Assembly (NCBI RefSeq): GCF_031851795.1 | Contig: NZ_CP134696.1 | Coordinates: 1,607,576-1,671,575, forward strand | Length of the DNA stretch: 64,000 nucleotides | Direction: 5' to 3' | Origin: Pontibacter sp. G13 | GTDB lineage: Bacteria > Bacteroidota > Bacteroidia > J057 | Part shown: positions 13,590-21,412 of the stretch, one piece after another | How positions within the stretch are numbered: position 1 is the first letter of the stretch | How the letters are laid out: the number at the start of each line of letters is the position of its first letter | Notes under the pieces: generated by a model | Databases searched by the model: none | Told to the model about the DNA's origin: nothing | Seen by the model: the letters and a program-made list of their open reading frames with translations, nothing else | Program-made: the position numbers and the translations under genes

Positions 13590-14402
13590 ATGAATTGGAC
13601 CTACTTCTCCGTCGATATTCAAGACCACGTAGCTCACGTGGCATTCAACCGCCCCGAGAAAGCCAACTCCCTCCACATGCCCATGTGGGAAGAAATGCGC
13701 GCCATCTTCGAGCATCTCCACCAAGAACCCGAAGCTCGCGTGATCGTCCTCTCGGGCGAAGGCAAGCATTTCTGCGCGGGGATTGACCTCGAACTACTCA
13801 TGAGTCTCCAGTCATTCAACCAGACCGACTGCGAAGGCCGAAAGCGCGAGCAACTCCGAGGCTTCATCTTCAAGCTCCAAGATTGCATCACTGCCATCGA
13901 AAAATGCCGAAAGCCCGTCATGGCAGCCATCCACGGCGCTTGCGTAGGGGGAGCCGTGGACATCGTCTCGGCCTGTGATATGCGATACGCAACGGAGGAT
14001 GCCTACTTCTCCATCAAGGAAATCGATCTCGGTTTGGTCGCCGACATCGGCACACTCCAGCGCCTTCCAACCATTCTGCAACCGGGAATGGTCGCCGAGA
14101 TGGCCTACACTGGACGCAAGGTATTTGGGCCAGAAGCAGCACAGATCGGACTTACCAATCGCTGTTTCGCAGACAAGGCCCAGATGATGGAAGCCGTGCT
14201 GGAAATTGCCGGGACCATTGCCGCCAAATCCCCCCTCTGCATCCGAGGAACCAAGGAAGTGCTGCTCTACAAGCGCGATCATTCGGTGGAGGACTCCCTC
14301 AACTATATGGTGGCATGGAACGCCTCCATGCTCATGTCCAAGGACCTCATGGAATCCTTCCAGGCACACATGATGAAGCGAAAGCCCGTCTACGACAACT
14401 AG
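13590..14402 (+). CDS. Crotonase family enzyme, dienoyl-CoA isomerase-like
   Basis: A 270-residue crotonase-fold enzyme. The start at 13590 gives the standard N-terminus (MNWTYFSVDIQDHVAHVAFN); upstream codons in frame look non-coding. The oxyanion-hole segments are present (GKHFCAGIDLELL and AIHGACVGGAVDIV). Three acidic residues that define delta(3,5)-delta(2,4)-dienoyl-CoA isomerase are all in place: Asp130 in SACDMRY, Glu144 in SIKEIDLG and Asp152 in VADIGTLQRLP. That pattern distinguishes it from simple enoyl-CoA hydratases, which use two glutamates. The likely role is beta-oxidation of unsaturated fatty acids in the cytoplasm. It has no fatty-acid neighbours and stands at the edge of the repeat mosaic. 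Confidence 0.88.
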   Translation: MNWTYFSVDIQDHVAHVAFNRPEKANSLHMPMWEEMRAIFEHLHQEPEARVIVLSGEGKHFCAGIDLELLMSLQSFNQTDCEGRKREQLRGFIFKLQDCITAIEKCRKPVMAAIHGACVGGAVDIVSACDMRYATEDAYFSIKEIDLGLVADIGTLQRLPTILQPGMVAEMAYTGRKVFGPEAAQIGLTNRCFADKAQMMEAVLEIAGTIAAKSPLCIRGTKEVLLYKRDHSVEDSLNYMVAWNASMLMSKDLMESFQAHMMKRKPVYDN

Positions 14403-14425
14403 GACCTCACCCAATCTGGATTCAT

Positions 14426-14453
14426 GGAGGGGAGTTTATCATAAGCTCCCTCC
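14426..14453 (+). terminator. Stem-loop after the crotonase gene
   Basis: GGAGGGGAG pairs with CTCCCTCC with one bulge, 23 bases after the stop. No T-run follows, so it may only stabilise the 3' end. Confidence 0.35.
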
Positions 14454-14690: not shown

Positions 14691-14830
14691 GAGATATCCA
14701 CCGACTGAATCCTACAGGCCCATCACGCCGCCGCTGGCCATCCGCACCTCTGATGGATTTCCCTCCATTCACACTCGGCGCCGATCTCCTGAGCGTGTAC
14801 ATGCATGCCGTGCCCGCTCCCCCTTTGTGT

Positions 14831-15340
14831 CATTCTGAAAAATCTGAAGCCGGGGCCTCTGCGTTGGGGATTTATTCAGAATCTCACGCCTAGTGCATGC
14901 CGGGACTTGTCTTTTACCAAGCGCAGAACATCCATTCTCGCCACATCCCCAAACCCCACACGTCATCCTCGACGGCCATAGCCAAGGCCCCAGCGTCGGC
15001 GCCGATCGGGGATCTCCTGAGCGTGTACATGCATCCCGGGCCTGCTCCCCCTTTGTGTCATTCTGAAAAATCTGAAGCGTGGGCCTCTGCGTTGGGGATT
15101 TATTCAGAATCTCAAGCCTCGTGCATGTCAAGGCTTGTCTTTTACCAAGCGCAGAATATCCATCCTCGCCACATCCCCAAGCCCCACACGTCATCCCCGA
15201 CGGCCATAGCCAAGGCCCCAGCGCCCGCGCCGATCGGGGATCTCCTGAGCCTGTACATGCATGCCGTGCCCACTCCCCCTGTGTGTCATTCTGAAAAATC
15301 TGAAGCGTGGGCCTCTGCGTTGGGGATTTATTCAGAATCT
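14831..15340. repeat. 228-bp tandem repeat inside the mosaic
   Basis: Two full consecutive A+B units (14831-15058 and 15059-15286), each exactly 228 bp and roughly 90 % identical by eye, are followed by a third A module (15287-15340). A partial unit precedes them from 14779. The period is divisible by three, which keeps several reading frames open. Confidence 0.85.
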
Positions 15341-16959
15341 TGGGAGGAATGAATGTCCAGCGCCCCAAGATCCTGAATCGACCCCCATCGCCGGAAGCCT
15401 CGGCTATGGCCATTCAGGATGACATATTGGGAAGGAATGAGTTCCTGCCCTGCGGGCGCCCAACCGCAACCCCCTTTGCAGGGACGCGAGATCCCGGATA
15501 AATTCCGCCTCGCACACAGGCCACCGCGGGAATTTTCCGGGATGAGGCAATATGTTTGTTGAGTATTTGTGCAAGCGCTGAAGGCGCGACATCCCACAGG
15601 CAAGGGTTTCTAACCCTTGACTGACTATGGCACGGGGAGCGAAACCCAATTCCAAGCCCACTCCCCCTTTGTGTCATTCTGAAAAATCTGAAGCGCAGGC
15701 CTCTGCGTTGGGGATTTATTCAGAATCTCAAGCTTCGTGCATGCTGAGTCTTGTCTTTTACCAAGCGCAGAATATCCATCCACGCCACATCCCCAAGCCC
15801 CACACGTCATCCTCGACGGCCATAGCCAAGGCCCCAGCGTCGGCGCCGATCGGGGATCTCCTGAGCGCGTGCATGCATGCCGGACCTGCCCCACAAGCCC
15901 CCTTGGCGATCTCCTTGGATCTGAGCAGGAGCCGGATTACCCACAGGCCAGTCCACAGGCCGAAATCCGGCTCAGCCAAAATGGTGATGGGCCGGTCCAC
16001 TTGCCGAAATCCGGCTCAGCCAAAATGGTGATGGGCCGACGCACTCGCCGAAATCCGCCTCGGCATTCATCCTGCCCTGCGGGCGCCCAACCGCACCCCC
16101 CTTTGCAGGGACGCGGGATCCCGGATAAATTCCACCTCGCACACAGGCCTCCACGGGAATTTTCCGGGATGAGGCAATATGTTTGTTGAGTATATGTGCA
16201 AGCGCTGTAGGCGCGACATCCCACAGGCAAGGGTTTCTAACCCTTGACTTTGGCACGGCGGCCATGCCCTCGGCCCCAGCGCCCGCCCCGATAAGGGATC
16301 TTCTGAGCGCGAAGCCTCCTGCTATGCGAGAAACAATTCTGCCTCATCCCGCAAAATTTCGAAGCGGTGGCGTCGGTGGGCCGGGAAATTTATGCGGGAT
16401 CTCAAGCCTCGTGCATGCCGGGACTTGTCTTTTACCAAGCGCGGAATACCCATCCACGCCACATCCCCAAGCCCCACACGTCATCCCCGACGGCCATAGC
16501 CAAGGCCCCAGCGCCCGCGCCGATCGGGGATCTCCTGAGCGCGTGGATGCATGCCGGACCTGCCCCACAAGCCCCCTTGGCGATCTCCTTGGATGCCATG
16601 CTAGCTCGGGGAGATTCCACCTCTGCCACCGACACGCGTAGGCCGTGGCCGATGGCAGGCTGGAATGACGTGATGGGGTGGGATGGAATCCTGCCCTGCG
16701 AATGCCGAGCAGGAGCCGGATTACCCACAGGCCGGTCCACGTGCCGAAATCCGGCTCAGCCAAAATGGTGATGGGCCGACGCACTCGCCGAAATCCGCCT
16801 CGGCATTCATCCTGCCCTGCGGGCGCCCAACCGCACCCCCCTTTGCAGGGACGCGGGATCCCGGATAAATTCCGCCGCCCAAAGGCCACCGTGGGAATTT
16901 TCCGGGATGAGGCAATATGTTTGTTGAGTATTTGTGCAAGCGCTGTAGGCGCGACATCC

Positions 16960-16990
16960 CACAGTCAAGGGTTTCCAACCCTTGACTGTG
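16960..16990. repeat. Perfect 14-bp hairpin in module C
   Basis: CACAGTCAAGGGTT and AACCCTTGACTGTG are exact reverse complements around a 3-nt loop. Other module C copies keep a 9-12-bp version of the same stem (for example near 17344), so the structure is held while the sequence varies. Confidence 0.85.
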
Positions 16991-17834
16991 GCACGGGGAG
17001 CGAAACCCAATGCCGTGCCCACTCCCCCTGTGTGTCATTCTGAAAAATCTGAAGCGTGGGCCTCTGCGTTGGGGATTTATTCAGAATCTTGGCAGGAATG
17101 AATGTCCAGCGCCCCAAGATCCTGAATCGACCACCATCGCCGGAAGCCTCGGCTATGGCCGTTCAGGATGACATATTGGGAAGGAATGAGTTCCGGCCCT
17201 GCGGGCGCCCAACCGCACCCCCCTTTGCAGGGACGCGGGATCCCGGATAAATTCCGCCTCGCACACAGGCCACCGCGGGAATTTTCCGGGATGAGGCAAT
17301 ATGTTTGTTGAGTATATGTGCAAGCGCTGTAGGCGCGACATCCCACAGTCAAGGGTTTCCAACCCTTGACTATGGCACGGCGGCCATGCCCTCGGCCCCA
17401 GCGCCCGCCCCGATAAGGGATCTTCTGAGCGCGAAGCCTCCTGCTATGCGAGAAACAAATCTGCCTCATCCCGCAAAATTTCGAAGCGGTGGCGTCGGTG
17501 GGCCGGGAAATTTATGCGGGATCCCAAGCCTCGTGCATGCCGGGACTTGTCTTTTGCCAAGCGCGGAACATCCATTCTCGCCACACCCCCAAGCCCCACA
17601 CGTCATCCTCGACGGCCATAGCCAAGGCCCCAGCGCCGGCCACGATCGGGGATCTCCTGAGCGCGTGCATGTATGCCGGGCCTGCCCCACAAGCCCCCTC
17701 GGCGATCTCCTTGGATGCCATGCTAGCTCGGGGAGATTCCACCTCTGCCACCGACACGCGTAGGCCGTGGCCGATGGCAGGCTGGAATGACGTGATGGGG
17801 TGGGATGGAATCCTGCCCTGCGGATGCCGAGCGG

Positions 17835-17879
17835 GAGCCGGATTACCCACAGGCCAGTCCACTGGCCGAAATCCGGCTC
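17835..17879. repeat. Nested inverted repeat in module F
   Basis: An outer stem GAGCCGGATT/AATCCGGCTC encloses an inner stem GGCCAGT/ACTGGCC. Together they can form a two-tier hairpin or cruciform. The copy near 16713 keeps the outer arms. Confidence 0.75.
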
Positions 17880-18195
17880 AGCCAAAGGAGTGGTAGCATA
17901 TTGCAAGCGCTGTAGGCGCGACATCCCACAGGCAAGGGTTTCTAACCCTTGACTATGGTACGGGGAGCGAAACCCAATGCCAAGCCCACTCCCCCTGTGT
18001 GTCATTCTGAAAAATCTGAAGCGCAGGCCTGTGCGCTGGGGATTTATTCAGAATCTTGGCAGGAATGAATGTCCAGCGCCCCAAGATCCTGAATCGACCA
18101 CCATAGCTAGAAGCCCCGGCAATGGCCGTTCAGGATGACATATTGGGAAGGAATGAGTTCCGGCCCTGCGGGCGCCCAATCGCCCTTTACCCCGA

Positions 18196-19227
18196 TCATC
18201 GAAAGACAAACCCTCGCTTCAAGGGATCGGCCGGATCAATAACGAACTCATGCTTGCCCGTGATGAAAGCCGTTCCACGGACTTCAGGGATGACTGCGGG
18301 AATGCCTTCGTAATCTACCGTCTGGAGGACACGGCAATCAAAGGTGGTCCCCAAAATGCTCTCGATTTTCATCCACTCCCCTACCCCGATTTCTCCTCGG
18401 ACATGATGAATGGCCATCCTTGCAGATACCCCCGAACCCGTGGGAGAGCGATCCACTTCCCCTTCCGCAAAGATGCAGACGTTGCGGCTATCGACCCCTT
18501 CCGAGACTGGACCTCCGATGAAGATCGTCCCGTAGAGAAACCCCAAATCTGGTTCGGTAGGGTGCTGGATATCTCGCTGAGCCATGACTGCCCGCTTGAT
18601 ATCCATCCCCGTCTGGATCAATCGCTGGTAGGCTTCTGGCGTGCAGGGAATCCCCAGCGCATCCGCATCCACGAATGCATAAAAAGCTCCTCCGTAGGCG
18701 AGATCGTATTTCACCTTGCCAAGTCCCGGAACCTCCACCTTCTGATCGAGATCTACCACAAATGAAGAGACATTCTGGAAGCGCATATCCACAGCTTGTC
18801 CGTCCTCGACTTTCACATAGGCATGAAGCAAGCCGCATGGGGCCTCGATCCGGATGTGGGTTTCAGGCTCCTGTACATTCACCCATTGAGCTTCCACTGC
18901 CAACTTGGCAATGGCGATCGTAGCATGTCCACACATGGTACTATAGCCTTCATTATGCAAAAAGACCACCCCAAAATCGGCCACTTGACTGGGCGTAACC
19001 ACCACACCATACATGTCCGCATGGCCCCGCGGTTCAAACATCAGTGTGGTGCGTAGGTGGTCATAGTGATCACGGATAAAGTTGCGGTAGTCGAGGACCC
19101 GATCTCCTTCAAGTGCAGGAAATCCATCGAGAATCACCCGGAGCGGTTCGCCCCCGGTATGCATGTCGATCGTGCGGATCGCCACCCAATCCTGTGGAGG
19201 CTGCCACGTGTCAACAGAAAATGACAT
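18196..19227 (-). CDS. trans-3-hydroxy-L-proline dehydratase (proline racemase superfamily)
   Basis: A 343-residue cytoplasmic enzyme of the proline racemase fold. The first catalytic cysteine is kept (Cys99 in STMCGHATIA), but the second, normally in DRSPCGTG, is a threonine here (Thr263 in DRSPTGSGVSAR). In characterised members this Cys-to-Thr change marks dehydration of trans-3-hydroxy-L-proline to pyrroline-2-carboxylate rather than racemisation or epimerisation. The next gene upstream in the operon encodes the expected pyrroline-2-carboxylate reductase, 33 bases away, which supports the call. The start at 19227 gives the usual N-terminus leading to RTIDMHTGGEPLRV. Its 3' end abuts the repeat mosaic. 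Confidence 0.88.
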   Translation of the reverse strand: MSFSVDTWQPPQDWVAIRTIDMHTGGEPLRVILDGFPALEGDRVLDYRNFIRDHYDHLRTTLMFEPRGHADMYGVVVTPSQVADFGVVFLHNEGYSTMCGHATIAIAKLAVEAQWVNVQEPETHIRIEAPCGLLHAYVKVEDGQAVDMRFQNVSSFVVDLDQKVEVPGLGKVKYDLAYGGAFYAFVDADALGIPCTPEAYQRLIQTGMDIKRAVMAQRDIQHPTEPDLGFLYGTIFIGGPVSEGVDSRNVCIFAEGEVDRSPTGSGVSARMAIHHVRGEIGVGEWMKIESILGTTFDCRVLQTVDYEGIPAVIPEVRGTAFITGKHEFVIDPADPLKRGFVFR

Positions 19228-20452: not shown

Positions 20453-21412
20453 ATGAAGCCTCCATACGAAATCACCTCTTCGATCCTCCAATTGGTTTCT
20501 GAAATTTCCGAAAAGATCGGAGCTATTCACGCTACCATGATGGACAGACCTTCTCCTGAACTCCGGAAGAAGAATCGAGTCAGAACGATTAAGGCATCCT
20601 TGGCGATCGAAGGCAATACCCTCTCTGAGGCTCAAATCACAGCCATCATAGACAACAAAAGGGTGTTGGGTCCCCAGACTGAGATTACCGAGGTAAGGAA
20701 TGCCATTGAGGTATATGACCAATTGCCAGAATTTGATCCATACAGTTTGGCTGATTTCCTTCAGGCACATGGCACCCTCATGAATGGGCTGATGGATAGA
20801 CCCGGAACCTTCAGGACCTCCGGAGTAGGAATAGTCAAGGGAAATGTCATATCACATCTGGCCCCTCCTGCTCGTTTGGTCCCAAGCTTGATGGAAAAGC
20901 TATTCGACTACCTCAAGCACTCGACTGATCATGCTTTGATCAAGAGTTGTGTTGGGCATTATGAAATTGAATTTATCCATCCTTTTCTGGACGGAAATGG
21001 AAGAATGGGACGACTCTGGCATACCTGCCTAATGATGCGAAACTACCCCATCATCGAATTCCTTCCCTTTGAAACGCTTATCAAGCATCGGCAAGCGGGG
21101 TATTACAATGCCATGGAACATGCTGACAATTCGGGAAAATCTACTGTTTTCATTGAATTCATGCTAATGGCCATCCGTGATGCGCTTGATGAAGTCATGC
21201 TTACTCCTCCCCCGAGTTTAAAGCCCAAAGATCGACTGGTTTACTTTCGATCTCATTTCGATGGAAATACCTTCAGCAGAAAAGACTATTTATCCGTTTT
21301 TGGGAATCTGTCTACCGCTACGGCAAGTCGCGACTTGAAATTAGCGGAGTCCCAAGGCTTGGTCACCAAAACTGGCCAGCGCAACCAGACTCGCTATTCA
21401 TGGACTTCGTAG
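20453..21412 (+). CDS. Fic family protein with N-terminal inhibitory helix
   Basis: A 319-residue Fic-domain protein, a probable AMP-transferase. The catalytic motif [12 protein letters not shown] starts at His176 and is intact for AMPylation. An inhibitory helix motif (S/T-x-x-x-E-G) is present at residues 49-54 (SLAIEG), N-terminal to the Fic core, as in class II autoinhibited Fic proteins, so no separate antitoxin is needed. The C-terminal 75 residues ([30 protein letters not shown]) look like a winged-helix DNA-binding domain. It is preceded by a three-site operator, consistent with autoregulation. Targets are unknown. It is probably a stress or signalling enzyme rather than a free toxin. 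Confidence 0.9.

Follow-up and report, generated by a model that had tools for sequence, protein, structure and literature searches.

The window analysed here, a stretch of 64,000 nucleotides from Pontibacter sp. G13, contains at positions 14779-18190 a 3.4-kb gap without a recognised gene that is occupied by an array of hairpin repeats. We propose that this array is probably a composite of short mobile hairpins resembling repetitive extragenic palindromes (REPs), belonging to two enzyme-linked classes, and that class 1, comprising the families F1-F6, has a small stand-alone GIY-YIG nuclease as its partner. Hairpins of this design stand beside small GIY-YIG genes in many phyla, which suggests the nuclease as a candidate enzyme for a repeat class that has none assigned.

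Two hairpin classes in the array

Thirty hairpins of eight families were mapped in the locus (F1 six times, F2 five, F3 two, F4 four, F5 three, F6 two, F7 three and H7 five), covering 1,671 of its 3,412 bases. Coordinates and families come from one motif map of the window, from which a match at 14346-14428, overlapping the end of the hydratase gene, was dropped as spurious. The first repeat copy begins at 14783 and the last finishes at 18187. The first-pass annotation had placed a repeat locus here between convergent 3' ends and had described at least seven recurring palindromic modules with inverted repeats, similar to REPs or bacterial interspersed mosaic elements (BIMEs), which stay conserved while their junctions change. 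All of this agrees with our map, including the convergence of the flanking genes, which encode an enoyl-CoA hydratase (plus strand) and a proline racemase (minus strand). The modules had further been called shuffled, and they do recur in different orders; however, the gaps between given neighbours are constant (77 bases for F1-F2, F3-F2 and F2-F6, 26 for F1-F5, 65 for F5-F4, 25 for F4-H7, 96 for H7-F3 and 40 for F6-F7), so that the apparent shuffling amounts to a few composite blocks reused in differing orders. Orientation is likewise constant within each family, rightward for F1, F2 and F3 and leftward for F4, F5, F6, F7 and H7. F1 and F3 interchange in one slot, ahead of the same linker and F2, and the largest internal duplication pairs 16070-16764 with 17192-17886 at 96% identity.

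The view of the array as a mix of unrelated palindromes did not survive: six of the eight families form one superfamily, H7 matches a different class, and F7, which carries no tag, is assigned to neither. The 22 hairpins of F1-F6 share a CGTC-type tag, a stem that begins with AT and a bulged A. Read inward from the tag, each consists of an unpaired [CT]GTC or CCTC, AT, six variable bases and a second stem; on the 3' arm an extra, bulged A lies between the two stems, the stem runs past this base into the second one, and the element ends AT-C, the right arm then being followed by CTC, CTT or CCC. The elements are 55-61 bases long. In the window the tag is TGTC, CGTC or CCTC in 22 of 22 hairpins and is absent from F7 and H7; the bulged base is A in 22 of 22, as is the form AT...... 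of the 8-bp stem, which the scan itself demanded. The F2 stem has the consensus ATCCYCGA, with a wobble pair in three copies, and F6 has one mismatch.

The design was followed in a sample of the own genome made up of 41 stretches (689,028 bases), namely the window, 34 stretches picked for resemblance and six picked without that choice. The signature GTCAT...ATCT marks 175 elements in these stretches, most of them picked for resemblance, compared with at most four for each of 30 shuffled signatures, and chance is thereby excluded as the origin of the hairpin signature. Among 179 distinct own-genome elements with a perfect six-base inner stem ten 8-base stems can be told apart, of which one occurs in a single element; the bulged base is A in all 179, and the bulge improves pairing in 176, with three ties. 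When sites were chosen without the stem but with ATC in range, full complementarity was present at 176 of 1,094 GTCAT and 87 of 855 CTCAT sites, compared with 0-3 for eight control tags. Compensatory changes, which the first-pass annotation had named as a check, were sought, and paired substitutions are present in both stems. In the second stem, pair 3 of F5 is GC in 22, GT in 11, CG in six, TG in four and TA in two copies (45 of 50), and pairs 2-4 of F4 change from A-T types to G-C types. Neighbouring hairpins less than 150 bp apart (147 pairs) most commonly have their tags outward (63, under half), followed by head-to-tail (45) and tags-inward (39) arrangements, and their spacing is often 19 or 28-31 bp.

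The modules are also dispersed, and neither of the two outcomes that the first-pass annotation had named as refuting its reading, absence of other copies and absence of paired changes, was obtained. A search of the own 7.67-Mb genome with the locus gave 402 matches (40 of 116 first-look candidates scored), and the exact F1 and F5 hairpin pattern gave 209 matches genome-wide, compared with none for the reversed control. At C1:463695-465456 of the same genome, beyond the 41 sampled stretches, 21 hairpins form a strictly alternating F1/F5 array with a period of about 170 bases.

The five H7 hairpins appear to constitute a second class. Rfam hits in the locus are confined to H7, whose five copies score 22.7-29.1 bits against RF01687 (Acido-Lenti-1) on the minus strand, every one below the 37-bit cut-off. 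The genome holds two Y1_Tnp genes, both flanked by palindrome arrays. One encodes an IS200/IS605 transposase (NCBIfam NF033573, 81.1 bits, cut-off 55) with H7-like arrays on both sides (identity of 76-84% across 42-56 bp, and of 74% in a single 65-bp match), and judging by these similarities H7 resembles the repeats around this gene. At this locus (L049:860-2361), repeats matching Acido-Lenti-1 also lie on both sides of the gene, one above the cut-off (41.2 bits) and ten up to an E-value of 0.1. The other gene encodes a REP-associated tyrosine transposase (RAYT; NCBIfam, 90.8 bits, cut-off 80) and is accompanied at L050:1100-2070 by CGCGGACT...AGTCCGCG hairpins, which make up another of the genome's repeat families. 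Inspection of the flanks revealed no GTC-tagged hairpins around either gene. A single Y1 transposase serving all modules was considered and rejected, as the two own genes carry palindromes other than F1-F6.

Small GIY-YIG genes beside tagged hairpins

No mobile-element enzyme gene lies inside the array, as the first-pass annotation had noted, and the enzymes of relevance sit elsewhere in the genome. Small GIY-YIG genes (PF01541) of this genome are found within arrays of the F1-F6 design. The locus at C1:4.466 Mb has hairpins alternating with two gene copies, one intact and one frameshifted; the own nuclease measures 99-108 residues. F3 and its linker in the window (16331-16433 and 17459-17557) match, at 86-87% identity across 99-103 bp, DNA whose end is 8-12 bp away from the stop codon of the intact gene. 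The opposite side of this gene has F4-like hairpins (79% identity across 113 bp).

The association extends far beyond this genome. One small GIY-YIG query protein has 540 relatives, of which the best 80, a set that samples mainly one clade, were examined. A GTCAT...ATC hairpin lies no more than 400 bp from 79 of these 80 genes, L091 being the exception, whereas 193 shuffled tag pairs were found at a mean of 1.7 loci and a maximum of 14, the latter for a tag overlapping the true one. By NCBI names these 80 loci span 14 phyla, with nine loci unassigned. The closest named matches in this set to a protein of the same family come from Flavobacterium and Algoriphagus, which would place the own genome in the Bacteroidota. 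Matches per 250-bp bin outward from the gene number 248, 48, 28, 9, 5, 6, 9 and 15, and the median distance of the hairpin is 40 bp ahead of the matched start and 17 bp past the stop. Under a tighter loop limit, hairpins are present on both sides of 59 genes, on one side of 18 and on neither side of three; where 400 bp were available on each side, both sides are flanked in 54 of 71 loci. The tags tend to point outward, with the nearest upstream hairpin on the plus strand in 43 of 63 cases and the nearest downstream hairpin on the minus strand in 49 of 73 (each P about 0.0025), and the two orientations are combined in 30 of the 59 loci with hairpins on both sides. T or C precedes GTC in 293 of 312 cases. 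A gene with its flanking hairpins resembles a minimal mobile element of the form hairpin-nuclease gene-hairpin.

In a plasmid collection, 32 records encode a related protein. Ten loci were picked from them by the author, and nine have tagged hairpins nearby, although a single Sphingobium site accounts for two of the nine as alleles and the downstream copies at L208 and L210 are imperfect. Examples are the CGTCATCCCCGCGAAGGCGGGGATCCAG hairpins of Azospirillum lipoferum and the CGTCATTCCCGC...GCGGGAATC hairpins of a Neisseria gonorrhoeae record. In an alignment of 32 proteins the catalytic positions are kept, every one having Y8, Y19, G21, E66 and N85 and at least 90% having R29. Among solved structures, the UPF0213 proteins 1zg2 and 1ywl come nearest. 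We did not find a pairing of GIY-YIG genes with hairpin REPs in the literature, a weak absence because coverage fell short of most subscription journals and of all bioRxiv preprints.

Comparison of alleles shows presence and absence of the gene within hairpin boundaries. In three Sphingobium plasmids the interval from fnrL to a response regulator gene contains hairpin-gene-hairpin; others, alike outside the site, have a single CGTCAC...GTGACG hairpin (two plasmids) or a DUF559-type palindrome (one) in its place (of four records without the element, three were aligned). In Planktothrix agardhii the gene lies within a hairpin array on one plasmid, and on another (PCC7805) the array is present without it. 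The A. lipoferum element occupies a sufB-sufC gap of 617 bp, compared with 91 bp in A. ramasamyi, and in Sinorhizobium a single hairpin is the counterpart of hairpins accompanied by one truncated and one complete gene.

We further examined the own genome together with 39 relatives. Among genes with usable flanks, an exact repeat of at least 14 bp is common to both flanks of 22 of 42 small GIY-YIG genes but of only one of 20 large ones, where it is an AT-rich word. On a nuclease tree of 132 of 135 proteins (23 rows without a label; labels set from inspection for the five rows L051, L052, L056, L070 and L178 and for the two tRNA rows L071 and L072), hairpin and tRNA labels require 26 changes, compared with a shuffled mean of 44.9 and with none of 200 shufflings as low. 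The clustering is driven by the ATTGC stem (9 changes against 35.1) and by tRNA (1 against 10.7). In relatives, the small genes of the tRNA type have tRNA genes, or duplicated 3' pieces of them, as neighbours (L071, L072, L074, L076, L077 and L082, and further L172, L173, L177, L180 and L181), and 11 such rows stand on one side of a tree branch that also holds six unlabelled rows. Inspection showed CTCGAAGGG-like hairpins at one other small subfamily.

Copy number was tested with three stems taken from nuclease flanks, which range from 0 to 183 copies per related genome. Seven of the 12 relatives in which a type-1 nuclease was found carry at least ten copies, compared with three of the other 27 (Fisher P 0.004), where a few weak PF01541 matches were left out and G025 was counted as type 1 on a 54-bit fragment. 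A fourth stem was seen only in G002, in four copies, two of which adjoin its nuclease.

Small DUF559 nuclease-like genes also lie between palindromes such as CCCCTCTCTTGCCAAGAGAGGGGG, for instance at L220 (Sphingomonas), L275 (Sphingobium) and L244-L273 (relatives). At least 14 bp are shared between the flanks of 13 of 19 tested DUF559 loci (21 of 47 matches used), and a second pairing of a small nuclease with REPs is possible.

Proposed mechanism and competing explanations

Hydrolysis of DNA is the activity of GIY-YIG enzymes, some of which, SLX1 among them, prefer branched DNA. In the mechanism we propose, class 1 hairpins would extrude from the duplex or fold on single-stranded DNA, and the nuclease would cut at the foot of a hairpin after reading its tag, 8-bp stem and bulged base. 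Repair of the break could copy hairpin-plus-linker blocks to other hairpins in a homing-like gene conversion, and it could also exchange one hairpin for another in one slot and add tandem copies. As GIY-YIG enzymes hydrolyse strands and are not known to join them, insertion at a new site would require host repair, and the copies in the window, which have no nuclease gene among them, would rely on an enzyme supplied in trans. That F1 and F3 take each other's place in a slot, and that arrays grow in tandem, is compatible with cutting and repair, without proving it. Extended to the whole repeat class, the proposal is that minimal elements of about 300-450 bp, composed of REP hairpin, GIY-YIG nuclease and REP hairpin and present in at least a dozen bacterial phyla, are the source of CGTC-tagged REPs through structure-guided cutting and repair rather than a strand-joining transposase, with sister subfamilies using pieces of tRNA genes and with the unrelated small nuclease family DUF559 forming a parallel pairing with palindromes of its own; we give this wider reading about an even chance. 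If it is true, hundreds of intergenic hairpins per genome that are now seen as inert or regulatory would be copies of a nuclease-driven element, and the growth of mosaic repeat arrays and the exchange of modules would be accounted for. The small nuclease gene between hairpins in many phyla is a named candidate enzyme that is cheap to test, for which the bulged-base hairpins of this window would be ready substrates.

Several observations weigh against the nuclease as partner. The window array contains no nuclease gene, and none was found adjoining F1, F2, F5 or F6 in the own genome; of the pair at C1:4.466 Mb, one gene has a frameshift, and a third own gene (L052) has a hairpin array on its upstream side only. 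In the own genome and relatives GTCAT hairpins accompany 11 of 47 small genes (a count that includes L079, whose domain lies within a 519-residue open frame) and two of 23 large ones, a low figure for the small genes that we attribute to other small subfamilies carrying other hairpins or tRNA pieces. On the tree only ATTGC, tRNA and a two-row ATCGC label cluster, whereas ATTCC, ATCCC and ATTCT do not, and many forks are unresolved and thinly supported. Three relatives (G006, G009 and G035) have at least ten copies of the tested stems and no type-1 nuclease that we could find, and one of the ten plasmid loci (L209) has no tagged hairpin. No target-site duplication could be resolved in the allele alignments, whose junctions are too diverged, and we know of no GIY-YIG enzyme that joins strands. 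The departures in loop and tail from CGTC-tagged REPs described below belong here as well.

An alternative that we regard as unlikely is that REP arrays are made by something else and serve as a safe haven in which selfish small GIY-YIG genes settle. In its favour, Planktothrix PCC7805 retains its hairpin array without the gene, REPs occur in some genomes in which no nuclease was found, and Azospirillum and Sinorhizobium have REPs at many places. It fits less well with the tight placement of hairpins at both ends of the gene and their mostly outward tags, with the presence of a hairpin at nearly all of the best 80 of 540 loci across many phyla, and with a hairpin type that partly tracks the nuclease tree.

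It is improbable that the array is an ordinary REP/BIME cluster whose hairpins owe their mobility to a RAYT or IS200/IS605-type Y1 (HUH) transposase, with the GIY-YIG link being incidental. Both own Y1 genes, one of them a RAYT, lie between palindrome arrays, and H7 fits such an origin; however, these arrays consist of H7-like repeats at one gene and CGCGGACT hairpins at the other rather than GTC-tagged ones, the F1-F6 tags are not GTAG, and in a 2013 survey CGTC-tagged REPs had no link to tyrosine or other transposase genes (PMC3733652).

That the host keeps the locus for its own benefit, as a structured RNA, a transcription end or a nucleoid/gyrase site, is very improbable. The convergent 3' ends and the G-T pairs among stem variants would suit it, but Rfam recognises H7 alone and below cut-off in the window, the three tested stems differ widely in copy number among related genomes, and hosts of many phyla carry such hairpins near the nuclease. 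Local degenerate duplication without function is hardly credible, since despite clear block duplications within the locus, such as the 96% pair above, the 402 own-genome matches, the 209 exact F1 and F5 hairpins and the covarying stems contradict it as the sole account, leaving it as a partial truth for the last duplications.

Feature map and comparison with known systems

The mapped features are listed in Table 1. A Fic/DOC family gene lies near the array at window positions 20453-21412. A coding array was considered and rejected: long open reading frames do cross the repeats, and, judged from repeat phase and openness on both strands, they fit GC-rich 228-base periods.

Table 1. Hairpins of the array and the two flanking genes (window positions)
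Feature	Position	Strand	Basis or remark
Enoyl-CoA hydratase/isomerase gene, left neighbour	13593..14402	+	Pfam PF00378, E 3.6e-45; 3' end towards array
F1 hairpin, tag TGTC, stem ATTCTGAA	14829..14885	+	motif map
F2 hairpin, tag CGTC, stem ATCCTCGA	14962..15016	+	motif map
F1 hairpin	15057..15113	+	motif map
F2 hairpin, stem ATCCCCGA	15190..15244	+	motif map
F1 hairpin, tags-outward pair with next F5, 26 bp apart	15285..15341	+	motif map
F5 hairpin, tag TGTC, stem ATCCTGAA	15367..15423	-	motif map
F4 hairpin, tag CCTC, stem ATCCCGGA	15488..15546	-	motif map
H7 hairpin, repeat resembling IS200/IS605-transposase type	15571..15620	-	motif map; Acido-Lenti-1-like, 24.9 bits (cut-off 37)
F1 hairpin	15673..15729	+	motif map
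F2 hairpin	15806..15860	+	motif map
F7 hairpin, stem AGCCGGATT, without GTC/CTC tag	15925..15977	-	motif map
F4 hairpin	16115..16173	-	motif map
H7 hairpin	16198..16247	-	motif map; Rfam
F3 hairpin, tag CCTC, stem ATCCCGCA	16343..16403	+	motif map; 86% identity (with linker) to DNA beside own GIY-YIG gene
F2 hairpin	16480..16534	+	motif map
F6 hairpin, tag CGTC, stem ATTCCAGC, one mismatch	16611..16669	-	motif map
F7 hairpin	16709..16761	-	motif map
F4 hairpin	16855..16911	-	motif map
H7 hairpin	16936..16985	-	motif map; Rfam
F1 hairpin	17034..17090	+	motif map
F5 hairpin	17116..17172	-	motif map
F4 hairpin	17237..17295	-	motif map
H7 hairpin	17320..17369	-	motif map; Rfam
F3 hairpin	17465..17525	+	motif map; 17459-17557 shares 87% identity, across 99 bp, with DNA whose end is 12 bp from own GIY-YIG stop
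F2 hairpin	17602..17656	+	motif map
F6 hairpin	17733..17791	-	motif map
F7 hairpin	17831..17883	-	motif map
H7 hairpin	17903..17952	-	motif map; Rfam
F1 hairpin	18001..18057	+	motif map
F5 hairpin	18083..18139	-	motif map
Proline racemase family gene, right neighbour	18196..19227	-	Pfam PF05544, E 2.5e-108; 3' end towards array

CGTC-tagged REPs have CGTC, TGTC or CCTC tags, an 8-9-bp stem that begins with AT, a loop of 4-5 bases and a CCA tail, and occur in species that include A. lipoferum and Neisseria (dRS3) (PMC3733652; Di Nocera, De Gregorio, Rocco 2013). F1-F6 share with them the unpaired tag, the 8-bp stem with A-T and T-A as its first pairs, the paired stem variants, the intergenic location and tags-outward dimers as the commonest pair type. 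They differ in having a bulged A plus a long-loop second stem in place of the short loop, in a CTC, CTT or CCC tail in place of CCA, in the large clusters seen in the window, and in the nuclease proposed as partner where that description reports no transposase. Because of the loop and the tail we class F1-F6 as a variant rather than a plain member, and by their sequence features the 22 hairpins would fit a long-loop, bulged-A form of CGTC-tagged REPs.

The arrangement also resembles BIMEs and the REPtrons of RAYT and IS200/IS605 enzymes, in which a small enzyme gene lies between short palindromes and solo copies are scattered, and H7 falls with these REPtrons by its neighbours. Class 1 departs from them, as its tag is GTC or CTC followed by AT rather than GTAG, and its candidate partner is a GIY-YIG nuclease rather than a Y1 HUH enzyme. 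H7 copies match the Acido-Lenti-1 model (RF01687) on the minus strand, although those of the window stay under its cut-off. The context of H7 points to a transposase-linked repeat rather than a small RNA gene, and, going by the context at the IS200/IS605 gene, the Acido-Lenti-1 "small RNA" family may be such a repeat itself.

The hairpin-linked nucleases, of 95-100 residues, share with UPF0213 proteins and with free-standing GIY-YIG homing endonucleases a small GIY-YIG fold with conserved Y, G, R, E and N positions; no intron, intein or extra DNA-binding domain was seen with them. Unlike the genes of such homing endonucleases, theirs lie between hairpin repeats that also occur as many solo copies. 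Free-standing GIY-YIG homing endonucleases spread by break repair, the route by which the hairpin-linked nuclease, too, is proposed to spread.

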